Assembly (NCBI GenBank): GCA_009996515.1
Contig: JAACZV010000006.1
Span: forward strand, 1-64,000
Direction: 5' to 3'
Source of the DNA: Comamonadaceae bacterium
GTDB lineage: Bacteria; Pseudomonadota; Gammaproteobacteria; Burkholderiales; Burkholderiaceae_C
DNA length: 64,000 nt
The translations under genes and the position numbers were made by a program. The notes under the pieces are model-generated. The model was not told where the DNA came from and made no database searches. It was given only the letters and a program-made list of their open reading frames with translations. Shown in pieces: positions 2,508 through 28,267 of the stretch (position 1 is its first letter; the number at the start of each line of letters is the position of its first letter).

Positions 2508-3713
2508 ATGAACCCCCTCGCATGGAGCACCGGCGCCCTCGCCGCCGCCGCCGCCCTCGTGGCCTGCGGCGGCAGCGGCACGGACGACGCCGCGCCGCCC
2601 GCTGACGCCAGCACGCTGGCGCAAGGGCGCCAGACCTTCCGCTACGACAGCTTCGGCGACGAGGCCAAGTGGACCGACCAGCTGCGTCTGCACGAGGCGG
2701 TGGCCAGCGCCGTCACGCCGGCCGTCGCGCTGGGCGCGGGCCTGAAGGTGGATGCCGACGCCCTGCCCGACACGCTCAAGCAGGCGCTGGCCGAGCACCG
2801 GGTGCCGCTGGACGACACGCAGACGACGCTGGCCCTGCTGCAACTGGACGCCGTCGTCGGCCTGAAGGGCCAGGTCGTGCAGCAGGGCGGCGTGCTGAAG
2901 CTGACACGCCTGGGCGTGACCTGCGCGCTGTGCCACTCGACCGTGGACAACTCGTTCGCGCCCGGCATCGGCCGGCGGCTGGATGGCTGGCCCAACCGCG
3001 ACCTCGACGTGGGCCGCATCATCGCGCTGTCGCCCGCGCTGGACGGCGCCGCCAAGGCGGTGTTCGGCGGCTGGGGTCGCGGCAAGTACGACCCGCGCTT
3101 CAACATCGACGGCAAGAACAGGCCCGCCGTCATCCCGCCCGCCTACGGCCTGGCCGGCATCCACCGCATCACCTTCACCGGCGACGGCGACGACATCGCC
3201 TACTGGAACCGCTATGTCGCCGTGACGCAGATGGGCGGCCTGGGCAGCTTCCTGGACCCGCGCCTGCCGGCCGCGACCGTCACCCACGGCAGCGTGGACC
3301 TGGTCGGTCCCCGCTTGCCGGCCCTGCAGGCCTACCAGCTGTCGCTCGCCCCGCCGGCCCCGCCCGCCGGCAGCTTCGACGCCGTCGCCGCCGCCCGCGG
3401 CCGGCTGCTGTTCGAAGGCAAGGCGCAATGCCTGGCCTGCCACGGCGGGCCGCAGTTCACCGACGCCAACCAGCGGCTGCACGCCCCCAGCGCGTCCATG
3501 GCCGAGCCGGAGTCACCCAGCTACGCCGCGCGCTCGGCCACCGGCATGTATCGCACGTCGCCGCTGAAGGGCGTCTGGCAGCACGCCCCCTATTTCCACG
3601 ACGGCAGCGCGGCGACGCTGGAAGACGTGGGGGCGGCCTACAACGCCCGCCTGCGGCTGGGCCTGACGGCGGGCGAGATCGCCGACCTGGCCCAGTACCT
3701 GAAATCGCTCTGA
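2508..3713 (+). CDS. Di-heme c-type cytochrome lipoprotein (MauG / cytochrome c peroxidase-like)
   Basis: About 401 residues. The start at 2508 is preferred over an in-frame one at 2472 because it begins directly with a lipoprotein signal (LVAC, lipidated Cys20). Two heme c sites are visible: CALCH at 139-143 and CLACH at 308-312. The C-terminal region around GVWQHAPYFHDGS, ending in a short helix with QYLKSL, is typical of the second heme domain in the bacterial di-heme peroxidase/MauG superfamily. It is therefore a periplasmic electron-transfer or peroxidase protein; true peroxidase activity is not shown. It leads a plus-strand run of redox and metal genes. The next gene starts 94 bases downstream. 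Confidence 0.85.
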   Translation: MNPLAWSTGALAAAAALVACGGSGTDDAAPPADASTLAQGRQTFRYDSFGDEAKWTDQLRLHEAVASAVTPAVALGAGLKVDADALPDTLKQALAEHRVPLDDTQTTLALLQLDAVVGLKGQVVQQGGVLKLTRLGVTCALCHSTVDNSFAPGIGRRLDGWPNRDLDVGRIIALSPALDGAAKAVFGGWGRGKYDPRFNIDGKNRPAVIPPAYGLAGIHRITFTGDGDDIAYWNRYVAVTQMGGLGSFLDPRLPAATVTHGSVDLVGPRLPALQAYQLSLAPPAPPAGSFDAVAAARGRLLFEGKAQCLACHGGPQFTDANQRLHAPSASMAEPESPSYAARSATGMYRTSPLKGVWQHAPYFHDGSAATLEDVGAAYNARLRLGLTAGEIADLAQYLKSL

Positions 3714-3807
3714 GCCCGGGAACGCGCGCCCGCCTCGTGACGTCCATCCCCATGCCGGGAAAGCCATCCCGCCCCCTCTTCAACTCCCTCACCCCACCAT
3801 CACCGCC

Positions 3808-4344
3808 ATGAACCGACACCTCCCGCTCGCCGCCCTGGCCCTCGCCGCCCTGTCGCTGCAGGCCCAGGCCCAGAACGCCGCCGCGCCCAACGACGCGCAG
3901 ATCGCCGCCATCGTCGTCACCGCCAACCAGGTGGACGTGGATGCCGGCAAGCTCGCCGCGGGCAAGACGCTGTCCAAGACCGTGAAGGCCTTCGCCCAGC
4001 AGATGGTCACCGACCATGGCGGCGTCAACAAGATGGCCGCCGATCTGGCGCACAAGCTCAAGCTCACGCCGCAGGACAACCCCACGGCGCAAGGCCTGCA
4101 AAAAGGCGGCGACGACAACCTCGCGGCGCTGCGCCAGCTGCAAGGCGCCGCCTTCGACAAGGCCTATGTGGATCACGAGATCAGCTACCACCAGGCCGTG
4201 CTCGACGCGCTGGACCAGCTGCTCATCCCCAACGCCGTCAACGCCGAGCTCAAGGCCTTGCTGCTGAAGGTGCGTCCCGTCATCGACGCCCACCTCCAGC
4301 ATGCCCGGCACCTGCAGACCGAACTGGGTGGGCGCGGTGGCTGA
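3808..4344 (+). CDS. DUF4142 family periplasmic protein
   Basis: 178 residues. The signal peptide covers residues 1-21 (ending ALSLQAQAQ). The mature part is a helical ferritin-like bundle matching the DUF4142 pattern: an early segment with VVTANQVDVDAGKLA, a TDHGGVNK segment, and YVDHEISYHQAVLDALD near the C terminus. The two His-containing helices are characteristic of the family. Its function is not established; members often sit beside envelope stress or metal genes. The stop TGA at 4342-4344 lies inside the start region of the cupredoxin gene, so the pair is coupled. Confidence 0.85.
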   Translation: MNRHLPLAALALAALSLQAQAQNAAAPNDAQIAAIVVTANQVDVDAGKLAAGKTLSKTVKAFAQQMVTDHGGVNKMAADLAHKLKLTPQDNPTAQGLQKGGDDNLAALRQLQGAAFDKAYVDHEISYHQAVLDALDQLLIPNAVNAELKALLLKVRPVIDAHLQHARHLQTELGGRGG

Positions 4345-4645
4345 GGCCAGAGCCGCCCTGCTGCTGGCGCTGTGGGCCTTGGCGCCGACGGCCTGGAGCG
4401 CGACGCACACCGTCCTCATCGAGGGCATGCGCTTCCGGCCCGCGGTGCTGACGGTGCAGCGCGGTGACCGCGTCGTCTGGGTCAACCGCGACGTGGTGCC
4501 CCATACGGCGACGGCGCGCGGGGCCTTCGATTCGGCCGCCATCGCGCCGGGCGCCCGCTGGGGCGTCACGCTGAAGCGGGCCGGGTCTCATGAGATCGTC
4601 TGCACGCTGCATCCCACCATGAAGGCCAGTCTGGTTGTGAAATAG
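4337..4645 (+). CDS. Cupredoxin-like periplasmic copper protein (amicyanin-type ligand loop)
   Basis: About 102 residues from a GTG at 4337 that overlaps the preceding stop; another GTG at 4328 is possible. Residues 1-22 are a signal peptide (LLLALWALAPTAWSA). The mature protein is one small beta-barrel of the plastocyanin/azurin class. Type I copper ligands are visible as His56 (VVPH), Cys89, His92 and Met95 in the loop CTLHPTM. The Cys-x2-His-x2-Met spacing is the short loop of amicyanin rather than the longer loop of plastocyanin. The expected role is periplasmic electron transfer or copper binding. It lies between DUF4142 and the ECF sigma gene, only 4 bases before the latter. Confidence 0.85.
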   Translation: MAEARAALLLALWALAPTAWSATHTVLIEGMRFRPAVLTVQRGDRVVWVNRDVVPHTATARGAFDSAAIAPGARWGVTLKRAGSHEIVCTLHPTMKASLVVK

Positions 4646-4649
4646 CGCG

Positions 4650-5411
4650 ATGGACGCCAGGCTCTCCCCGGATCTGCCCGCCCGCGCCGACGACGCCGAG
4701 CTGGCGCGCCGCATCGCCGCCGGCGACGGCGCGGCCTTCGAGCGGCTGATGCGGCGGCACAACCGCCGCCTCTACCGGCTGGCGCGCGTGATGCTCAGGA
4801 ACGACGGCGACGCCGAGGACGCGCTGCAGGAGGCCTATCTGCGGGCCTTCCACGCGCTGGGCGGATTCCGCGCCGAGGCCTCGCTCGCCACCTGGCTGTC
4901 GCAGCTGGTGACCCACGAATGCCTGAGCCGCCTGCGCAAGCAGGCCCGTCGCGACGGCATTGCACGCATGGTCCAGGCCGAGCCGCTCGCCGACGAGCAG
5001 CCCCTGGACGCGGAGACCGAGGCCATGGACCCCAGCCATGCAGAACGCCCGGAGGAGGCGCTCGCCAGGGCGCAGCTGCGCGCGCTGATCGAGCGCCGCC
5101 TCGACGAATTGCCCGAGGCCTTCAGCAGCGTGTTCGTGCTGCGCGGCCTGGAGGAGCTGAGCGTGGAGGAAACCGCGCAATCGCTAGGCATCCCCGAAGC
5201 GACGGTGCGCAGCCGCTACTTCCGCGCCCGCGGCCTGCTGCGCAAGTCACTGGCCGCGGACATCGACCTGGCGCAGCAAGGCGTGTTCGCCTTCGACGGC
5301 GAACGCTGCGACCGCATCGTCGGCGCGGTGCTGAGGAGGCTGCACAATCCGGGCCCGACCGCTGCGCCCTCAGCCGCCCCGCCACCCGACGCCCCACCCG
5401 CCTCGCCATGA
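4650..5411 (+). CDS. RNA polymerase ECF-type sigma factor
   Basis: 253 residues. Region 2 covers roughly residues 20-95 (FERLMRRHNRRLYRLARVML, then DAEDALQEAYLRAF), which is typical of extracytoplasmic-function sigma factors. Region 4 covers about residues 150-200 with an HTH (LSVEETAQSLGIPEATVRSR). It has a Pro/Ala-rich tail after region 4. No adjacent anti-sigma or FecR-like gene is visible; the immediate neighbours are a cupredoxin and a DUF2946 protein, with a TonB receptor downstream. It probably controls this island, but the signal is unknown. Its stop overlaps the next start in ATGA at 5408-5411. Confidence 0.9.
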   Translation: MDARLSPDLPARADDAELARRIAAGDGAAFERLMRRHNRRLYRLARVMLRNDGDAEDALQEAYLRAFHALGGFRAEASLATWLSQLVTHECLSRLRKQARRDGIARMVQAEPLADEQPLDAETEAMDPSHAERPEEALARAQLRALIERRLDELPEAFSSVFVLRGLEELSVEETAQSLGIPEATVRSRYFRARGLLRKSLAADIDLAQQGVFAFDGERCDRIVGAVLRRLHNPGPTAAPSAAPPPDAPPASP

Positions 5412-5794
5412 AGCCCCGCCCACACCGCCGCCCCCGCGCCTTCGCCGCGTGGCTGCTGGCCGTGTTCCTGCTGGGCATGCTGGCGCCGGGCCTCAGCACC
5501 GCGCTGGCCCATGCGCGCGGCGACTTCAGCGCCTGGCAGGACATCTGCCGTGCGCCCACCGCGACGAACGCCGCCAAGCCCCAGCCCCTGCAGGCGGCGC
5601 TAGACCTGCTGGCCCAGGGCCATTGCCCGGCCTGCCACATCGGCGCGGCCGACCTGCTCGGCCCGCCGGCGCTGCCGCAGCTGGTGCTGCGGGCCGACGT
5701 CGTCGAGCAGGCCCCCGAGCGCTTCTGGAGCGCACCGGCCACCGCCCATGCCTGGCGCCCCGCCAGCGCGCGCGCCCCACCCGGGCGGATCTGA
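5408..5794 (+). CDS. DUF2946 family small envelope protein
   Basis: 128 residues, starting inside the stop of the sigma gene. An N-terminal hydrophobic segment (about residues 14-34, FAAWLLAVFLLGMLAPGLST) acts as a signal or anchor. The mature region carries DICRAP and then GHCPACH, the spaced Cys/His pattern of DUF2946. The CPACH motif resembles a heme c site, but in this family it is more likely a metal (copper) ligand. DUF2946 proteins are commonly found next to TonB-dependent copper receptors, which fits the receptor gene 84 bases downstream. The biochemical role is not established. Confidence 0.78.
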   Translation: MKPRPHRRPRAFAAWLLAVFLLGMLAPGLSTALAHARGDFSAWQDICRAPTATNAAKPQPLQAALDLLAQGHCPACHIGAADLLGPPALPQLVLRADVVEQAPERFWSAPATAHAWRPASARAPPGRI

Positions 5795-5878
5795 GTCTCC
5801 TCGCCTGCCCAGGGCCTGCCGGCCCGGGGCGTTTGCCGGTGCCCGCGGGCGCCGGCCCGACTCCTATCCCTGCCCCCA

Positions 5879-8278
5879 ATGATTCGAATGAACGCCCTTG
5901 CGCGCGCGGCTGCGGCCTGCGCCGCGCTGCCCCTGCTGCTCTCGACGCCAGCGCGCGCCTGCGACGACTGCGGCGACGACACCGCCGCGGCCGACACCGC
6001 ACCGCCGGTCCGCAAGAAGCTGGCCCTGGTGCGCGTCCAGGCCGCCGCGCCCTCGTCGCTGCCCACCAACATCCCGACCACGCGCGAGACCGTCACGCGC
6101 GAGGACATCGAGCGCAGCATCAACGCCACCGATGCCGAGGACGCGCTGAAGTACCTGCCCAGCCTGCTGGTGCGCAAGCGCTACATTGGCGACTACAACC
6201 ACGCCATCCTGTCCAGCCGTGCCTCGGGCACCGGCAACAGCGCGCGCTCGGCGGTCTATGCGGACGGCATGCTGCTGTCCAACTACCTCGGCAACGGCGT
6301 GGGCGGGCTCTCCTTCCCGCCGCGCTGGGGCCTGGTCACGCCCGAGGAGATCGAACGCGTGGACGTCATGTACGGCCCGTTCTCGGCCGCCTACCCCGGC
6401 AACTCGGTGGGCGCGGTGGTGGACTACCAGACCCGCATGCCCACCCGCTTCGAGGCCCATGCCAAGCTGGGCCACACGGTCCAGCCCTTCGAGCTGTACG
6501 GCATGAAGGCCACCTACCGCGCCTGGCAGGCCAGCGCGTCGCTGGGTGACCGCGCGGGGGACTGGAGCTGGTGGCTCAACGTCAACCGCACCGACAGCGA
6601 GGGCCAGCCGCTGACCTTCGCGACCCGCCTGGCCAGCACGGGCACGCCGGGCACGGGCGGCCCCGTGGTGAGCGGCGCCGTGATGCTGCCCAACAGCAGC
6701 GGCCAGCCCTGGTATCTGCTCGGTGCGGCGACGCAATACCGCACCCGGCAGGACCACCTCAAGCTCAAGCTGGCCTACGACCTCAGCCCCGGCGTGCGCG
6801 CCAGCTATGTGCTGGGCCTGTGGCGCAACGATGCCGACGGCAACGCCGCGAGCTGGCTGCGCGACGCCGCCGGCCAGCCGGTCTACCGGGGCAGCCTGGC
6901 GGCCGACGGCAAGGAATACATCAACATCGACGGCAAGCAGTTCGCGGCGCCGACCGGCGCCGACTTCGCACTGACGCGCGAGCGGCTGCTGCACGTCATG
7001 CACGGCCTGTCGGTCAAGAGCCGCAGCGGCGGCGAATGGGACTGGGAGCTCGCCGCCAGCCGCTACGACTACCGCGGCGACGACAAGCGCCAGAACGCCG
7101 CCAACAACCCGCAGCCCGGCGCCTGGACGGGCGGCCCCGGCACGCTGGCCGACGGCAGCGGCACGGGCTGGCTCACGCTGGCCGTCAAGGGCGTCTGGCG
7201 CCCCGCCGGCACGGGCCATGTCGTGGACCTGGGCCTGCAGCAGGACGGCTACACGCTGCGCTACCGGACCTCAGTCATCGCCGGCAACTACCTCAGCGAC
7301 GGCCCCGGCGCGCTGGCCAGCGCGGTCCAGGGCCGCACGCGCCTGCGGGCCGCCTACCTGCAGGACGCCTGGCTGCCCGCCCCCGACTGGAAGGCCGTGC
7401 TGGGCCTGCGCGCCGAGCATTGGCGGGCCGACGACGGCCGCACCGACTTCTCCGCCACCGGCACGCCGCCGCCCAGCGTCTATGCACCGCGCGGCGAGAC
7501 CTTCCTGTCACCCAAGGCCGCGCTGTCCTGGCAGGCCGCGCCCGAGCTGCTGCTGAAGGCCTCGCTGGGCCGGGCCGTGCGCATGCCCACGGTGGCCGAG
7601 CTCTACGGCGCCACGTCCACGACCAACGCGCAATACATCAACGACCCCGGCCTCAGGCCCGAGAAGTCCTGGACGGCCGAGCTGAGCGCCGAGTCCGCCT
7701 GGGGGGCGCTGCAATCCCGCCTGACGCTGTTCGCCGAGACCACGCGTGATTCGCTGTACTCGCAGACCGTGTTCGACGCCACCGCCAACCGCAACGTCAG
7801 CCGCGTGCAGAACATCGCCAGGATGGGCACGACCGGCCTGGAGGCCACGCTGGGCGCGGCCGACTGGCTGCGCAAGGGCCTGGACCTGTCGGCCAGCCTC
7901 ACCTACACGGATTCCAGGATCAAGGCCAACGCCGGCTTCGTCGCTGTGCCGGGCGACACCGTCGGGCGCTGGCAGCCCAACATCCCGCGCTGGCGCGCCA
8001 CGGCCCTCGCCACCTGGCGCCTGGACCAGCATTGGAGCGCCAGCCTGGCCGCCCGCTACAGCGGCCGCCAGTACCGCACGCTGAACAACAGCGACGTGAA
8101 CGGCTTCGCCTACATGGGCGTCAGCAAATACGCCACGGCCGACCTGCGCCTGCTGTGGAAGCCGGACCGCCAGTGGAGCGCCGCCTTCGGCATCGACAAC
8201 CTGAACAACTACAACTACTGGAACTTCCACAACTACCCGCAGCGCAGCTACACGGCCGAGCTGAAGTTCGATCTATGA
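5879..8278 (+). CDS. TonB-dependent outer-membrane receptor (copper receptor-like)
   Basis: 799 residues with a signal peptide up to about residue 27. The mature N terminus is Cys/Asp-rich (CDDCGDD), an obvious metal-binding candidate. A plug domain follows at about residues 60-170 (ETVTREDIERS, AVYADGMLLSNY, ERVDVMYGPFSAAYPGNSVG). The rest is a 22-strand-type barrel with repeated aromatic and charged beta strands, ending in ELKFDL. The overall look and the DUF2946 plus YcnI neighbours suggest an OprC/NosA-type copper receptor rather than a siderophore receptor; that assignment is inferred from context. Its stop overlaps the start of the YcnI-like gene (ATGA at 8275-8278). Confidence 0.88.
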   Translation: MIRMNALARAAAACAALPLLLSTPARACDDCGDDTAAADTAPPVRKKLALVRVQAAAPSSLPTNIPTTRETVTREDIERSINATDAEDALKYLPSLLVRKRYIGDYNHAILSSRASGTGNSARSAVYADGMLLSNYLGNGVGGLSFPPRWGLVTPEEIERVDVMYGPFSAAYPGNSVGAVVDYQTRMPTRFEAHAKLGHTVQPFELYGMKATYRAWQASASLGDRAGDWSWWLNVNRTDSEGQPLTFATRLASTGTPGTGGPVVSGAVMLPNSSGQPWYLLGAATQYRTRQDHLKLKLAYDLSPGVRASYVLGLWRNDADGNAASWLRDAAGQPVYRGSLAADGKEYINIDGKQFAAPTGADFALTRERLLHVMHGLSVKSRSGGEWDWELAASRYDYRGDDKRQNAANNPQPGAWTGGPGTLADGSGTGWLTLAVKGVWRPAGTGHVVDLGLQQDGYTLRYRTSVIAGNYLSDGPGALASAVQGRTRLRAAYLQDAWLPAPDWKAVLGLRAEHWRADDGRTDFSATGTPPPSVYAPRGETFLSPKAALSWQAAPELLLKASLGRAVRMPTVAELYGATSTTNAQYINDPGLRPEKSWTAELSAESAWGALQSRLTLFAETTRDSLYSQTVFDATANRNVSRVQNIARMGTTGLEATLGAADWLRKGLDLSASLTYTDSRIKANAGFVAVPGDTVGRWQPNIPRWRATALATWRLDQHWSASLAARYSGRQYRTLNNSDVNGFAYMGVSKYATADLRLLWKPDRQWSAAFGIDNLNNYNYWNFHNYPQRSYTAELKFDL

Positions 8279-15692: not shown

Positions 15693-15815
15693 CGGGCGGC
15701 ATTGTCCCGGATCGGGCCCACCCCTCGCTTGGGGGGAAGATGCCCAATGCTGCACGATTCACGTCCCCGCCCCCCCGCTGCAGGGGATGCCCGGGGCGAC
15801 CGCTTCTCCCTACAG

Positions 15816-15830
15816 TGGCCCCTAGCTTGA
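15816..15830 (+). promoter_or_regulatory. Sigma-54-like promoter element upstream of PEP-CTERM gene 1
   Basis: TGGCCC, five bases, then TTGA. This fits the -24/-12 spacing of sigma-54 promoters (TGGCAC-N5-TTGC) with one deviation in the -12 part, 54 bases before the start codon. A better match with the same spacing lies before the sister gene at 18694. PEP-CTERM genes are known to be RpoN/PrsR controlled in Zoogloea. Confidence 0.45.
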
Positions 15831-15884
15831 AGTTGAAATCCGACTTCCTGCGTATTTCAGGACACTTCAAGGGAAAGCCACAAC

Positions 15885-16541
15885 ATGTCCAAATCCTTGC
15901 GCCTCGTCGCCGCCACGCTGCTGACAGCTCTTGCCGCGTCGGCCCAGGCCGACTTCGTCACGTCCAGCCAGGGCGTCACCTTCACCTTCCACACGGTGGA
16001 CACCGACACCTTCACGCTGCGCATCCAGAATGCCGACAACGCGACGGGTGACTGGAAGACGGCCGATTACCTCAGCTACCTGGGCTTCAACGGCCTGGGC
16101 GGCAAGCTGCCCGGCCTGACCGGCGTCAACGTCAGCCTCAGCCCCGCGCCGGGCTACTCGGTCCAGTGGAGCTACACGCACACCGAACTGGCCGGCCAGG
16201 GCTGCAACAAGAACGGCAACTCCGGCGCCTTCTGCCTGGACGCCAACCCCAACATCCTGTTGACCGGCGACATGCTGTTCACCATCGACCTGCTGGGCAC
16301 CGGCATCGACCTCACGGGCAACATCGCCCCGCATCTGAAGGTCGGGTTTACCGACCAGGCAGGCAGCAAGCCCATCGGCTCGCTGCTGTCGGCCGACATG
16401 ACTTATGTGCCGCCGCAGACCAATGGCGGCGGCGGCACGCCCAGCGGCGGCGGCAACACGGTGCCCGAGCCGGCCTCGCTGGCGCTGGCCGGCCTCGCCC
16501 TGCTGGGTGTCGCCGCCGCGCGCCGCCGCCGCCCGGCCTGA
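15885..16541 (+). CDS. PEP-CTERM sorting domain protein (copy 1)
   Basis: 218 residues. Signal peptide 1-23 (ending ALAASAQA). The body is beta-rich: TFTFHTVDTDTFTLRIQNAD, then a GYSVQWSYTHTEL strand, a cysteine pair (QGCNKNGNSGAFC) and APHLKVGFTD. A Gly-rich linker (GGGGTPSGGGN) leads to the PEP-CTERM tail: VPEPASLALAGLALLG plus an RRRR end. Exosortase is expected to cut at the tail after export and release or anchor the protein at the outer surface. It is clearly homologous over its whole length to the protein at 18743-19417, with the subtilase gene between them. No exosortase gene is visible here. Confidence 0.9.
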   Translation: MSKSLRLVAATLLTALAASAQADFVTSSQGVTFTFHTVDTDTFTLRIQNADNATGDWKTADYLSYLGFNGLGGKLPGLTGVNVSLSPAPGYSVQWSYTHTELAGQGCNKNGNSGAFCLDANPNILLTGDMLFTIDLLGTGIDLTGNIAPHLKVGFTDQAGSKPIGSLLSADMTYVPPQTNGGGGTPSGGGNTVPEPASLALAGLALLGVAAARRRRPA

Positions 16542-16578
16542 AGCCTGCCCCCCCGAACGGGGCTGCCCGCCCCTCAGG

Positions 16579-16608
16579 AAAGCCCGCGAACGCGGGCTTT
16601 GTCGTTTT
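16579..16608 (+). terminator. Intrinsic terminator after PEP-CTERM gene 1
   Basis: Perfect 10-bp stem AAAGCCCGCG / CGCGGGCTTT with an AA loop, followed by GTCGTTTT. It separates the PEP-CTERM gene from the subtilase gene, which therefore needs its own promoter. Confidence 0.85.
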
Positions 16609-16797
16609 CGGGCCGGCCCGGCATGTGCCGCGAACGTCCACGAACGCCCGCGGAACAGCCCCGAAACACGGGTTACAGACCCATACAAAAACAGTCCCTC
16701 CCGCACGCCAACTCCCGCACATCTGAGGCGCCCCCCCCGCGAATGCATGGTGGGGAGCCCCTACACTGACTCCGGGCCTTTTCTGCCCATTTTTTTT

Positions 16798-16801
16798 GGA
16801 G
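16798..16801 (+). promoter_or_regulatory. Ribosome binding site that selects the GTG start of the subtilase
   Basis: GGAG five bases before GTG at 16807. An in-frame ATG at 16747 has no such site and lies upstream of a -10-like TACACT at 16760-16765, so the GTG is favoured. Confidence 0.6.
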
Positions 16802-16806
16802 TTGCC

Positions 16807-18594
16807 GTGTCCCTGCTCATATCTCTCGCGCTTTCTACAGCTTTGACGCCTGCCGGCGTCGTGGGCGGGCCCGATCCGGTTGGGCAGGCCATCGCCCAAC
16901 TGTCGGCCAGGCCCAGCGCCGCCGGCCCGAACGCGGCGGCACCGCGGCGCGTGCTGATCGGCACCAAAGCCGGCCTGACCGAGGCCGAAGTGGGCAAGAT
17001 CGCGGCAGTTCACGGCGCCAAGGCGCGCCGCATGGGGCCGCCCGGCATGTTCGTGTTCGAACTGCCCGCCAATGCGTCCGAGAAGGCCGTCGCAGCGACG
17101 CTGAGCCGCCACCCTCAGCTGAAGTTCGCCGAGCTCGACCAGCTGGTCGCCCCTGCCGCCGCGCCCAACGACCCCTATGCCGGCAGCCAGTGGCATCTGA
17201 ACAAGATGGGCCTGCCCAATGCCTGGGACACGACCCAGGGCGCTGGCGTGACGATTGCCGTGCTGGACACGGGCGTCGACGCCAGCCACCCCGACCTGGC
17301 CGCCCGCCTGGTGCCGGGCTGGAACTTCTACGACAACAACAGTGACACCAGCGACGTCAACGGCCACGGCACCGCGGTCGCCGGCGCGGCCACGGCCACG
17401 CTCAACAACGGTGTCGGCGTGGCCGGCACGGCGGGGCAGGCCCAGCTGATGCCCGTGCGCATCGCCGACGCCAACGGCTATGCCTACTGGAGCACGGTGG
17501 CGCAAGGCCTGACCTGGGCCACCGACAAGGGCGCACGCGTGGCCAACATCTCCTACGGCGGCGTCTCCACGAGCGCTGCCGTGCAGTCGGCGGCCCAGTA
17601 CATGCGCTCCCGCGGCGGCCTGGTCGTGGTCGCGGCAGGCAACAACGGCATCGACGAGGGCTTCGCGCCCACGTCCACCATGATCGTGGTGTCGGCCACC
17701 GACGCCAACGACGTCAAGACCTCCTGGTCCAGCTATGGCAGTTTCATCAGCGTCGCGGCGCCGGGCCAGGACATCTGGACCACCACCCGCGGCGGCGGCT
17801 ACCAGGCCTGGTGGGGCACCTCGCTGGCCAGCCCGGTGGTGGCGGGCGTCGTGGGCCTGATGATGTCGGCCCGGCCGGACATGAGCAACACGCAGGTCGA
17901 GAGCCTGCTGTATTCCAGCAGCGTGGACCTGGGCGCTCCCGGGCGGGACAGCTATTACGGCTGGGGGCGGGTGAATGCCGCCGCGGCCGTGCAGGCCACC
18001 GTGAACAGCGCGGTGGCGGACACCCAGCCGCCCAGCGTCGCCATCGCGTCGCCCGGCAACGGCAAGACCGTCAGCGGGCTGCTGCCCGTGGACGTCAATG
18101 CCAGCGACAACGTCGGCGTCACGCGCGTCGACCTGAAGCTCAACGGCAACGTGATCGCCTCGGACACCTCGGCCCCCTACGGCTTCAGCGTGGACACGAC
18201 CCAGCTGCCCAACGGAACCGCCTCGCTGGTCGCCATCGCCTATGACGCGGCCGGCAACCAGGGCAGTTCCACCGCCGTGGGCGTCACCGTCAGCAACAGC
18301 GTCGCGGTCGCCGCCGACACGACCCCGCCGGTCGTCAACGTCAAGGCGCCCTCCAACGGCGCCACCGTCTCGGGCAATGTGACGATCAGCGTGGCGGCCA
18401 GCGACAACGCCGGCGCCGCCGGCATCAAGCTGCAGTTGCTCGTCAACGGCAACCAGGTCGCCAGCGGCAGCGGCAGCACGCTGAACTACAAGTGGAATAC
18501 CGCCAAGCTGCCGGCCGGCAGCTACACGCTGGAAGCCCGCGCCACCGACGCCAACGGCAATGCGTCGTCCAGCGCCATCACCGTGAGGCACTGA
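16807..18594 (+). CDS. Secreted subtilisin-family (S8) serine protease with C-terminal Ig-like repeats
   Basis: About 595 residues from the GTG start. Residues 1-17 form a short signal peptide (SLLISLALSTALTPAG). A propeptide-like region (about 45-115) is followed by the catalytic domain with Asp154 (VLDTGVD), His187 (NGHGT), Asn279 (AAGNN) and Ser339 (GTSLASP), a complete subtilase triad. After about residue 405 come two Ig-like repeats, each opening with DTQPPSV or DTTPPVV and containing GxTVSG and NVG/NAG segments with a conserved LxxGxY-type end. There is no PEP-CTERM tail, so it should be fully secreted. It lies between two homologous PEP-CTERM genes, which makes them possible substrates or partners; this is inference. 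Confidence 0.88.
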   Translation: MSLLISLALSTALTPAGVVGGPDPVGQAIAQLSARPSAAGPNAAAPRRVLIGTKAGLTEAEVGKIAAVHGAKARRMGPPGMFVFELPANASEKAVAATLSRHPQLKFAELDQLVAPAAAPNDPYAGSQWHLNKMGLPNAWDTTQGAGVTIAVLDTGVDASHPDLAARLVPGWNFYDNNSDTSDVNGHGTAVAGAATATLNNGVGVAGTAGQAQLMPVRIADANGYAYWSTVAQGLTWATDKGARVANISYGGVSTSAAVQSAAQYMRSRGGLVVVAAGNNGIDEGFAPTSTMIVVSATDANDVKTSWSSYGSFISVAAPGQDIWTTTRGGGYQAWWGTSLASPVVAGVVGLMMSARPDMSNTQVESLLYSSSVDLGAPGRDSYYGWGRVNAAAAVQATVNSAVADTQPPSVAIASPGNGKTVSGLLPVDVNASDNVGVTRVDLKLNGNVIASDTSAPYGFSVDTTQLPNGTASLVAIAYDAAGNQGSSTAVGVTVSNSVAVAADTTPPVVNVKAPSNGATVSGNVTISVAASDNAGAAGIKLQLLVNGNQVASGSGSTLNYKWNTAKLPAGSYTLEARATDANGNASSSAITVRH

Positions 18595-18605
18595 GGCCCG
18601 AGGGC

Positions 18606-18648
18606 GGCCGGCGCCGTCGGTATTTCTTACATTTTTTCAGCGCCGGCC
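18606..18648 (+). repeat. Inverted repeat with AT-rich loop between subtilase and PEP-CTERM gene 2
   Basis: Perfect 9-bp arms GGCCGGCGC (18606-18614) and GCGCCGGCC (18640-18648) enclose an AT-rich stretch containing TATTTC and ATTTTTTC. It could be a weak terminator for the protease or a binding site for an activator of the sigma-54-like promoter 46 bases further on. Confidence 0.5.
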
Positions 18649-18693
18649 CCTCATTCATTACAAGACATCAGTCAAATCAATAAGTTGCCAACA

Positions 18694-18708
18694 TGGCCCG
18701 CATCTTGC
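18694..18708 (+). promoter_or_regulatory. Sigma-54-like promoter upstream of PEP-CTERM gene 2
   Basis: TGGCCC, five bases (GCATC), then TTGC, followed by T. Both the GG of -24 and the GC of -12 are present with exact spacing. It lies 34 bases before the ATG at 18743, a sensible leader length with a CTGGAGG ribosome site at 18731-18737. Confidence 0.6.
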
Positions 18709-18742
18709 TCATTTATGGGCACACAAGATCTGGAGGCCCCCC

Positions 18743-19417
18743 ATGTTGCGTCAGCTCCTCAAGGCCAGTTTGGCCACCGTCTCACTGTCGCTGGCATGCG
18801 CAAGCGCGCATGCGGACTACGAGGTCACGTTCAACAACGTGACGTTCGACTTCATCCAGACCAGCGCCAGCTCCTTCACGTTCAAGATCTCCAACCTGGA
18901 CAACCGGACCGGCAACTGGGCCCCTGACACGGACCTGGGTTTCTTCGCCTTCAAGGATCTGGGGCCGCTGACCGGCATCACCGGCGCGACGGTGACCAAT
19001 GTGCAGCCCGCATCCAGCAGCGTCTGGACCTATTCGGCCCAGGAATTGAACGCCAACGGCTGCGCCGGCGGCATGTCTGGCGGCATCTGCATGCAGGCCG
19101 TTCCCAACATCGCCCTGACCAATGACATGGAATTCCAGGTCAATCTGCTGGGCACGACGCTGGCCATCGACCCCACCCTTGGCCCGCACCTGAAGATCGG
19201 CTTCACCTACTTCGGCGACAAGTCGGGCACCTGGCAAATTGGCGGCGACCTGCTGTCGCAGAATATGCCCTTCGTCCAGGGCTGCACCGTCAACTGCGGC
19301 GGTGGCGGCAGCGGCGGCGGCGGTTCCACGCCCGAGCCGGCATCGCTGGCCCTGGTGGGCCTGGCCCTGCTGGCCGCGGGTGGCCAGTTGCGCCGGCAGC
19401 GCCGCAGCGGTCGCTGA
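18743..19417 (+). CDS. PEP-CTERM sorting domain protein (copy 2)
   Basis: 224 residues. Signal peptide 1-24 (CASAHA end). It repeats the pattern of the protein at 15885: SFTFKISNLDNRTGNW, VWTYSAQELNANGCAGG, a Cys pair in the same region, GPHLKIGFTY, a Gly/Ser linker and a tail TPEPASLALVGLALLAAGG with basic end. It differs in having a second Cys pair (QGCTVNC) before the linker. Exosortase processing and surface display or release are expected from the tail. It has its own sigma-54-like promoter and terminator. The shared layout with copy 1 suggests a duplication around the protease gene. Confidence 0.9.
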   Translation: MLRQLLKASLATVSLSLACASAHADYEVTFNNVTFDFIQTSASSFTFKISNLDNRTGNWAPDTDLGFFAFKDLGPLTGITGATVTNVQPASSSVWTYSAQELNANGCAGGMSGGICMQAVPNIALTNDMEFQVNLLGTTLAIDPTLGPHLKIGFTYFGDKSGTWQIGGDLLSQNMPFVQGCTVNCGGGGSGGGGSTPEPASLALVGLALLAAGGQLRRQRRSGR

Positions 19418-19436
19418 GCGCGATCCACTCCCGCAA

Positions 19437-19464
19437 CAGCCCGGCCCACGCCGGGCTGGTTGTT
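19437..19464 (+). terminator. Intrinsic terminator after PEP-CTERM gene 2
   Basis: Stem CAGCCCGGC / GCCGGGCTG with loop CCAC, followed by GTTGTTTT. It lies immediately before the end of the convergent phosphatase gene. Confidence 0.8.
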
Positions 19465-27068: not shown

Positions 27069-27746
27069 TCAGCGCGGCAGGCGGCGGCGGGCCACCAGGC
27101 CGACGATGCCCAGGCCGGCCAGCAACATCGCATAGCTCTCGGGCTCGGGCACCGGGGTCGCGACCACCAGATCCTGCAGGTTGCCATGGGTCAGCTTGGT
27201 CAGCGAGTAGAGCGCCGGGCCTTGGTAGGCCAGGGCCTGGGACAGGAAGGAGTTGGCCTGCGCGGACACGGCCTGGCTGACGGCATCGCTGCCCAGCAGG
27301 TGGAAGCTGCCGCCGTTGACGCTGAAGGTGTTGCCGGTCTCCAGCATCAGCTCCCAGATGGCCAGCTGGAAGGCGGCCTTGTCTTCATGCGTCGTCAGCC
27401 CGGCGTAGGACGTGGAGAACAGGCCCTGCAGCTGCTGGGCCTGGACGCCCGTGAAGCTCTCGATCGTGTAGGTCTGGTTGCGCAGCGCACGGCCATTGCC
27501 CTCGCCGGGCTGAATGCAGTAGGCCGCGAAGCTCTCGCCGGTGGCCGTGTAGACGTAGTTGAGCGCGGTGGTGGCGAAGTTGCTGGTCAGCGGCACGCTG
27601 TTGGACACGGTGGTGTCCATGGTGCTGAGCTTGAGGCCGGCCGTGTCCGGGCCCTGCCAGGTGATGTCGACGGTGCTGGCGGCCCAGGCGGCCTGGGACG
27701 CGAAGGCGCCGGCGACGATGAGGCTGGCGGCAACGAGTTGCTTCAT
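27069..27746 (-). CDS. PEP-CTERM protein with thioester-domain-like signature
   Basis: 225 residues. Signal peptide 1-23 (SQAAWAAS). The central domain contains FAAYCIQPGEGNG with Cys77 and AAFQLAIWELML with Gln127. The pair of a Tyr-Cys motif followed about 50 residues later by a Gln in QxAIW is the signature of thioester (TED/TQXA-type) domains, where Cys and Gln form an internal thioester that can bond covalently to host or surface amines. The tail VPEPESYAMLLAGLGIVGLVARRR is a PEP-CTERM anchor. The thioester is inferred from the motif only. It is the second gene of a two-gene operon, 26 bases after the PEP-CTERM gene at 27773, and ends in a UUCG terminator. Confidence 0.85.
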   Translation of the reverse strand: MKQLVAASLIVAGAFASQAAWAASTVDITWQGPDTAGLKLSTMDTTVSNSVPLTSNFATTALNYVYTATGESFAAYCIQPGEGNGRALRNQTYTIESFTGVQAQQLQGLFSTSYAGLTTHEDKAAFQLAIWELMLETGNTFSVNGGSFHLLGSDAVSQAVSAQANSFLSQALAYQGPALYSLTKLTHGNLQDLVVATPVPEPESYAMLLAGLGIVGLVARRRLPR

Positions 27747-27772
27747 GGCGATGTCCGGTGCGGTGATGGGGC

Positions 27773-28267
27773 TCAGGCCTTGCGGCGACGGACGCTGGCC
27801 AGGCCGGCGCCGACCAACGCCAGTGCGGCCAGGGCGGCACTGGCCGGTTCAGGCAGCTCCAGGCTGAGGCCGTAGCCTTGCCCCGCCTTGTCGTAATAGC
27901 TGGTGCCCACCACCTCGAGCTGCCATTGGCCGGCGCCCAGCAGCGTGGGCGTCAGCGCCCAGGACTCGAAGCCCGTGTCGGCGACGTTCCAGTCGATGGC
28001 GATGGTCTGCACCCAGTCCACCTCGCTGCCCAGCAGGCGCAGCGTGACCGAGCGGATGTCGATGGCCGGCACACCGCCCAGCAGCGTGCCCGTGCCCAGC
28101 AGGCCGCTCACCCAGGTGTTGTCGCTCAGGTCCAGCGTGTAGACGTCGGTGAAATCGGTGCCGAAACCCGTCTGGTCTTGATGACCGTAGTTGCTGAACA
28201 CGACCGGGGCCGCGGAGGCACTGGTGGCCAGGGCGAAGGCGGTTGCGACGGCGAACAGGGCTTTCAT
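27773..28267 (-). CDS. PEP-CTERM sorting domain protein (FxDxF-like)
   Basis: 164 residues. Signal peptide 1-19 (ALATSASA). The mature start PVVFSNYGHQDQTGFGTDFTDVYTLDLSD resembles the FxDxF PEP-CTERM family, with FTDVY in place of FxDxF. A beta-sandwich-like body follows (IRSVTLRLLG, WQLEVVGTSYYDKAGQGYGLSLEL). The tail LPEPASAALAALALVGAGLASVRRRK is a complete PEP-CTERM signal. No cysteine is present. It is the promoter-proximal gene of the operon with the thioester-like protein. Confidence 0.88.
   Translation of the reverse strand: MKALFAVATAFALATSASAAPVVFSNYGHQDQTGFGTDFTDVYTLDLSDNTWVSGLLGTGTLLGGVPAIDIRSVTLRLLGSEVDWVQTIAIDWNVADTGFESWALTPTLLGAGQWQLEVVGTSYYDKAGQGYGLSLELPEPASAALAALALVGAGLASVRRRKA

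Follow-up and report, generated by a model that had tools for sequence, protein, structure and literature searches.

What becomes of PEP-CTERM proteins once exosortase has acted on them is, to our knowledge, an open question in the field, and it is raised by a locus in which the gene for a secreted-type S8 subtilase lies between the genes for two such proteins, here called PEP1 and PEP2. The locus is part of a 64,000-nucleotide (nt) stretch of DNA from a Comamonadaceae bacterium (bases 1-64000 of contig C6 of the 4.58 Mb genome G000), which we refer to as the window. A previous sequence-only reading had proposed that the three genes form one module, in which the protease processes or acts with the two flanking surface proteins. 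By comparing the locus with those of relatives, we found that the conserved unit is the protease together with a PEP-CTERM neighbour, and that this pair recurs across beta- and gammaproteobacteria.

Linkage of the protease to PEP-CTERM genes

Matches to the window's protease at E<=1e-40 were obtained in 21 of 250 genomes of the family, 19 of them extending over most of its length; at most five candidates were scored per genome, which makes absences outside the genus less sure. These 19 loci and 26 loci from a scan of named genomes, which took the best 80 matches, gave 45 distinct full-length orthologues, to be regarded as a sample. One locus was dropped as a copy (L097, of L081), and four were set aside as partial (L118, L122, L123 and L124). 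The PEP-CTERM neighbours were detected with a profile made from 24 tails, none of which was taken from these loci. A PEP-CTERM gene was present at a distance of up to 1.3 kb from the protease gene in 32 of the 45 loci, comprising all judgeable family loci (18/18; L079-L096) and 14 of the remaining 27; L055, L108, L109 and L125 ended too near a contig end to be judged. Among 40 control genes, which were other high-scoring S8 proteases hand-chosen in 18 of these family genomes, five were located near a PEP-CTERM gene. The Fisher p-values against these controls were 7.5e-11 for the 18/18 and 5.6e-8 for the 32/45, both ignoring relatedness; the named genomes have no such control, distances were taken from the ends of the open reading frames (ORFs) for the controls and from match ends for the test loci, and one overlapping PEP-CTERM-like match in control L256 was not counted. 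The comparison supports the functional tie between protease and exosortase-sorted surface proteins that the sequence-only reading had assumed. Inspection by eye added partners with variant tails in L119 and L129 and a truncated one in L109, which are not included in the 32.

The two genes are arranged convergently (as in L100, Roseateles sp. YR242), with the partner downstream on the same strand or with the partner upstream on the same strand, and a further gene intervenes between them in L083 and L084. Because the adjacency occurs in several layouts, it is not just the remnant of one inherited operon. All 19 genomes with a full-length protease also contain an exosortase gene, compared to 134 of the 250 genomes overall (p 3.8e-6).

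A gene for a membrane methyltransferase (ICMT/DUF1295-like) adjoins the protease or its partner in five of 51 protease loci (L083 8190-9272, L084 4971-6068, L055 6-1031, L091 4775-5866 and L129 4209-5384) and in none of the 40 control loci; occurring in both beta- and gammaproteobacteria, it is a possible third member of the pair. Tandem copies of the protease gene were observed in L107 (Pseudoduganella violacea; 3478-7656) and L080 (6376-10100).

Exchange of the partner proteins

The partners were collected as a set of 38 proteins from 36 loci, including the three recognised by eye, PEP1, two partners encoded at L101 and a single one at the partial locus L122, and their tails and linkers were trimmed before grouping. 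The remaining bodies were highly diverse: 31 of the 38 formed ten families, the smallest with two and the largest with six members, seven were singletons, and the mean column identity was 19% (19 sequences). Three of the families span distant lineages, as illustrated by identities of 58% between the bodies from L081 (Burkholderiales) and L119 (Methylococcaceae), 56% between those from L085 and L115 (Nitrosomonas), and 48% between those from L084 and L117 (Methylomonas). Conversely, L083 and L084 from the same genus code for sister proteases (support 100/100) and for partners with near-identical sorting tails, while the partner bodies belong to different families. A choice-of-anchor N domain was recognised in two of ten partners scanned against NCBIfam, and many partners contain a Gly-rich linker, a feature that was examined in the partners only.

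The pair and the trio within the genus

A conserved trio was not borne out by the other genomes of the window's genus. Seven of these 19 contain one full-length PEP1 orthologue each (search with at most 30 scored candidates), located in all seven cases in the same slot between the genes for an S-adenosylmethionine (SAM)-dependent methyltransferase and a histidine phosphatase, with extra DNA in some of them. None of the 19 yielded the protease at E<=1e-60 with all candidates scored, and the protease is present in one of the 20 genomes of the genus. PEP1 is thus kept in place without the protease, which for this paralogue is the outcome that the sequence-only reading had named as speaking against it; the pair of protease and neighbour survives this test, because the seven genomes have one copy of the paralogue and none of 99 relatives has both. 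Since PEP1 occupies the slot without the protease in seven other genomes of the genus, it is probably the older resident, and the protease with PEP2 the extra. In the tree bearing on whether PEP2 may be a recent duplicate of PEP1, PEP2 groups with proteins of the same genus (support 93/94) and is unplaced among them, and the split of protease-linked from slot proteins is supported at 61/71. Partners of the PEP1/PEP2 family are also found 3' of the protease in L079 and L091. The PEP1 slot of L072 contains inserted transposase-like ORFs.

Promoter signals of the PEP-CTERM genes

Upstream regions were scanned for a PrsR box combined with a sigma-54 site, excluding L097 and using somewhat longer stretches for the partners than for the proteases. 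The combination was detected at a shuffle p<=0.05 for 22 of 35 partners, compared to four of 48 protease genes. The gene for PEP2 has the complete set of PrsR/RpoN regulon features, since a PrsR-like box, a 62-nt spacer and a -24/-12 site precede it (Table 1) and the genome codes for a PrsR response regulator (723.7 bits, cut-off 502.6). The box ends with CTTACA, compared to TTTACA in the 17-nt motif described by Haft in 2006, for which the relevant passages give a mean spacer of 62.8 nt (PMC1569441).

The sequence-only reading had assigned matching sigma-54-like promoters to both paralogues, noting that PEP-CTERM proteins are under RpoN/PrsR control in some betaproteobacteria. This assignment holds for PEP2, whose site has a single mismatch and a PrsR-like box, and fails for PEP1. 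The string TGGCCC-N5-TTG underlying the assignment has exactly two occurrences in the window (15816 and 18694) and is weak evidence alone because two copies were reached in 17 of 100 shuffles. The element at 15816 lacks the -12 GC, because it ends with TTGA, and its -24 GG is not kept in the seven same-genus orthologues, all of which lack TGG at the equivalent place (upstream regions compared by eye); the best PrsR/sigma-54 combination for PEP1 had a shuffle p of 0.15. The same comparison showed CCCTA upstream of all seven orthologues, continuing as CTAACTTGAAG or CTAGTTTGAAG in five of them. In addition, a TAGAGT/CTACAGT-like box precedes PEP1 (window 15700-15830) and most of the orthologues, followed by CCCTAACTTGAAG or a similar string in five of the seven, and a GC-rich stretch with GGGATG precedes these boxes in six of the seven (all by eye). 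The elements at 15700-15830 are a candidate promoter or leader.

A c-di-GMP riboswitch upstream of many protease orthologues

The same scan exposed a recurrent GGGCAAACC string 5' of the proteases, which Rfam identifies as a class-I (or -GGC) riboswitch for cyclic di-GMP (c-di-GMP). Aptamers scoring above the Rfam gathering score, which would bind c-di-GMP, are located just 5' of the protease in 26 of the 45 loci, six of the 19 found in family genomes (L055, L079, L085, L087, L092 and L094) and 20 of 26 from the named genomes, with L115 as a marginal case (36.2 vs. 35 bits). The 40 control loci contained three riboswitches (p 7.1e-7 vs. 26/45); for this comparison the test loci were searched with Rfam and the controls with a model of our own, which was built from the test sites and re-finds them. 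A further riboswitch precedes the partner gene in L119 (48.1 bits) and, marginally, in L092 (36.8 vs. 35 bits).

In nine of 27 leaders, compared to 1.4 expected from shuffles, the 3' strand of the aptamer can re-pair into a terminator-like stem, a layout predicting an ON switch; the clearest T-runs follow in L104, L105, L106 (Massilia kyonggiensis), L110 and both copies of L107. For this analysis, the start codon or the end was re-set in six leaders (L105, L120, L087, L099, L114 and the first L107 copy), of which L105 and L099 had shown no stem before, and three partial loci were left out.

Riboswitch presence requires eight state changes on the 45-row protease tree. Because rows of Nitrosomonas, Thiobacillus and gammaproteobacteria carry it, the tree, which is midpoint-rooted, suggests that the riboswitch was lost in the window's clade. 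A degenerate remnant at the window's protease was also considered and rejected, as neither Rfam (E<=5) nor a model made from 29 aptamers detected anything on the plus strand in the vicinity of the gene; the matches of that model were weak and on the minus strand, the best of them (L096 11224-11280, E=0.4) falling within PEP2.

Each of the tandem proteases of L107 has its own c-di-GMP-I riboswitch, and those of L080 have none. The three riboswitches of the control set belong to S8 proteases (L236, L240 and L242) that come from the same bacterial family but are not orthologues, and c-di-GMP may thus control secreted proteases more broadly. The window's own genome contains two c-di-GMP-I riboswitches. 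One (L188; G000:C4:17062-17148) is located 5' of a gene for a secreted-type protein that resembles an S53/sedolisin-type protease when its translation is read by eye, the other (L189) 5' of a gene reading like flagellar fliF.

Genes and products of the window's locus

The sequence-only reading proved correct in its description of the genes (Table 1). PEP1 and PEP2 are full-length paralogues with 41% identity over 201 columns (E=3e-36), each followed by its own terminator-like hairpin, and their C-termini show the PEP motif, hydrophobic stretch and basic end of PEP-CTERM substrates, both scoring above the Pfam cut-off of 20.7 bits. The intervening protease, whose GTG start is preceded by GGAG, matches Peptidase_S8 (2.7e-48) and two stretches of Big_7, and a Pfam scan gave no PEP-CTERM match at E<=0.1. 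The closest solved structure by sequence for its S8 domain is thermitase (1thm, E=2.4e-60). The residues D154, H187 and S339, which we take to be the catalytic triad from their DTG, HGT and GTS motifs, are unchanged in 20 of 20 aligned proteases, which together with the S8 domain places the enzyme among the S8 subtilases (thermitase-like). In the protease tree, the window joins rows of Roseateles, Mitsuaria and Paucibacter, i.e. the Sphaerotilaceae within the Burkholderiales. A structure predicted for PEP2 from two sequences was rich in beta strands and of low confidence (mean predicted local distance difference test score, pLDDT, 56.6); a Foldseek search of the PDB with this model returned nothing at E<=0.001. 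The genome has two exosortase (PF09721) and 19 PEP-CTERM matches. Two further neighbouring PEP-CTERM-type ORFs are present on the minus strand of the window at 27069-28267, the first with a weak match to a thioester domain and the second (27773-28267) with a tail slightly below the Pfam cut-off.

Table 1. Features of the protease/PEP-CTERM locus, with positions in the window
Feature	Position	Strand	Remarks
Element TGGCCCCTAGCTTGAA 5' of PEP1, read as sigma-54-like from the sequence only	15816..15831	+	Not supported as a sigma-54 promoter
PEP1, PEP-CTERM protein, 218 amino acids	15885..16541	+	PEP-CTERM 32.2 bits; slot between SAM-methyltransferase and histidine-phosphatase genes
Terminator-like hairpin 3' of PEP1	16579..16600	+	
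S8 subtilase, secreted-type, 595 amino acids	16807..18594	+	Thermitase-like catalytic domain and two Big_7 Ig-like domains
PrsR-like box (motif 1) CGTCGGTATTTCTTACA	18615..18631	+	62 nt 5' of the sigma-54 site
Sigma-54 (-24/-12) site TGGCCCGCATCTTGCT 5' of PEP2	18694..18709	+	Single mismatch to consensus
PEP2, PEP-CTERM protein, 224 amino acids; 3' partner of the protease	18743..19417	+	PEP-CTERM 25.4 bits; Gly-rich linker preceding the tail
Terminator-like hairpin 3' of PEP2	19437..19458	+	

Proposed function of the pair and alternative explanations

We propose that the subtilase and its exosortase-sorted neighbour work as a pair, and give this proposal about an even chance of being right. 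The partner would be exported, sorted by exosortase and kept on the cell surface or within the matrix of exopolysaccharide, where the subtilase, secreted in the biofilm state, would trim or release it. The enzyme would recognise the exposed linker or tail of the partner and not its ectodomain, because the ectodomain is swapped between unrelated families while the protease (and the tail) persists. In many lineages, and probably ancestrally, the protease would be controlled by a c-di-GMP-I riboswitch and the partner by PrsR/RpoN, and the subtilase would be made at high c-di-GMP where the riboswitch is kept and the ON prediction holds. In the window's clade, the riboswitch is missing and the PrsR/RpoN-type promoter is kept at PEP2, and PEP1, a second member of the family, flanks the pair, probably as the earlier occupant of the slot.

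Several observations weigh against this proposal. Gly-rich linkers are not known to be typical cleavage sites for subtilisins. Proteins of the PEP1 family occur in seven genomes without the protease, and seven loci lack a PEP-CTERM neighbour despite their available flanks (L105, L112, L113, L114, L120, L121 and L126). Within the family, the excess of riboswitches is modest (6/19 vs. 3/40, p 0.025), the strong signal coming from the named set, for which there were no matched controls. The window's protease has no match to a c-di-GMP family at Rfam E<=5, and all 11 rows of its clade (ten relatives and the window; support 99/99) lack the riboswitch. An aptamer-sharing terminator stem of at least seven pairs is absent from 18 of the 27 leaders, and in three of the nine stem-bearing ones (L099, L108 and L126) the T-runs are poor, so the ON logic may not be general. 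The combined PrsR/sigma-54 signal is missing at p<=0.05 for 13 of 35 partners, including PEP1. Finally, because five of the 40 control proteases are located near a PEP-CTERM gene and three have a riboswitch, both links may to some extent be a general trait of S8 proteases.

The foremost alternative is that the two are co-regulated and do not touch: both products would belong to the biofilm matrix and be encoded together for the same state, while the protease acts on other matrix proteins or on those of prey. Ten partner groups and seven singletons are hard to reconcile with a specific enzyme and its substrate, the control signals mostly differ between protease (riboswitch) and partner (PrsR/sigma-54), and a c-di-GMP riboswitch of the window's own genome precedes another gene for a secreted protease-like protein (3 kb viewed, so that a PEP-CTERM gene may lie beyond), all of which would fit this rival. 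However, the tight adjacency, both convergent and in tandem, exceeds what co-regulation would need, as unlinked loci would suffice, and the same partner families recur beside the protease in distant bacteria. We therefore regard co-regulation as unlikely, and yet as the strongest of the alternatives.

It is less probable still, and in our view improbable, that the PEP-CTERM protein serves as a surface dock, chaperone or inhibitor that holds or tames an anchorless secreted protease. The protease indeed has no PEP-CTERM match, its two Ig-like domains could bind a partner, and the partners would supply the sorting tail; however, the partner bodies are too dissimilar to share one binding surface. 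The fold of PEP2 is neutral in this respect, because the low-confidence model gave no PDB match.

A merely neutral neighbourhood, in which a drifting protease gene happened to insert near common, solitary and mobile PEP-CTERM genes, would agree with the presence of the protease in a single genome of the genus and with other insertions into the slot (L072), but is already disfavoured and very improbable in view of the 18/18 vs. 5/40 loci in the family and of the same partner families turning up in distantly related bacteria.

Relation to known systems

Trimming or release of the partner by the subtilase would resemble a system of Clostridioides difficile, in which a secreted protease, PPEP-1/Zmp1, controlled by a class-I c-di-GMP riboswitch releases the sortase-dependent adhesins CD2831 and CD3246, as described in the passages on this switch (PMC6366702). 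The gene numbers given there (CD630_28300 and CD630_28310) also place one target gene beside the protease gene. In contrast, PPEP-1 is a zinc metalloprotease switched OFF by c-di-GMP, and the adhesins are switched ON via class-II riboswitches. The enzyme of our pair is a serine subtilase, the tails are of the exosortase type, the partners are mostly under predicted PrsR/RpoN control, and cleavage is putative. For an opposite control by c-di-GMP of the PPEP type, the loci provide a partner riboswitch in two cases (L119 and, marginally, L092) next to an ON prediction for the protease in nine of 27 leaders. We tentatively put forward, at clearly less than even chances, that Gram-negative bacteria possess a switch equivalent to that of PPEP-1, in which one conserved subtilase, controlled by a c-di-GMP riboswitch in many lineages, edits replaceable exosortase-sorted proteins, and that this RNA sensor was lost in the clade of the window.

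Much of the setting is already known, namely the tails, the PrsR/RpoN promoter, riboswitches by some PEP-CTERM genes, and the Gram-positive switch of protease and adhesins by c-di-GMP. The PEP-CTERM/exosortase system with PrsK, PrsR and RpoN, for which sorting by exosortase was proposed, shares the tails, the exosortase, PrsR, and motif 1 with a 62-nt spacer and sigma-54 site with our locus, and the protease and peptidase passages of that paper name no secreted protease as a partner (PMC1569441). PepA of Aquincola tertiaricarbonis, whose host belongs to the Sphaerotilaceae like the window's group, is involved in floc formation, depends on RpoN1 with a mapped sigma-54 start site and keeps exopolysaccharide cell-bound; the neighbour stated in the relevant parts of that study is prsT, which was RpoN1-independent there (PMC9850573). 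Neither paralogue belongs to the corresponding equivalog floc_PepA (NF033554; PEP1 29.8 and PEP2 17.2 bits vs. a cut-off of 80), the match of PEP1 being confined to the tail. Methylophaga strain GP59 has c-di-GMP riboswitches beside PEP-CTERM genes, and the passages on them mention no protease (PMC12530212). Searches of the open-licence PMC literature, with few subscription journals covered, brought up no report of a secreted subtilase tied to PEP-CTERM genes or controlled by a c-di-GMP riboswitch, and where papers retrieved by them name PEP-CTERM as well as a subtilase or S8 peptidase, the two are treated separately in the passages concerned.

In flocs and biofilms, the pair connects exosortase-dependent surfaces with c-di-GMP. 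As the protease comes with a candidate substrate encoded next to it, many relatives have an RNA sensor and some hosts can be cultured, the fate of PEP-CTERM proteins after exosortase becomes testable. If a switch like that of PPEP-1 is indeed at work, the displayed ectodomain could be changed while one processing enzyme stays, and the window's clade would leave control to PrsR/RpoN on the side of the substrate. The pair with its swapped partners therefore suggests an unrecognised way of remodelling the biofilm surface.

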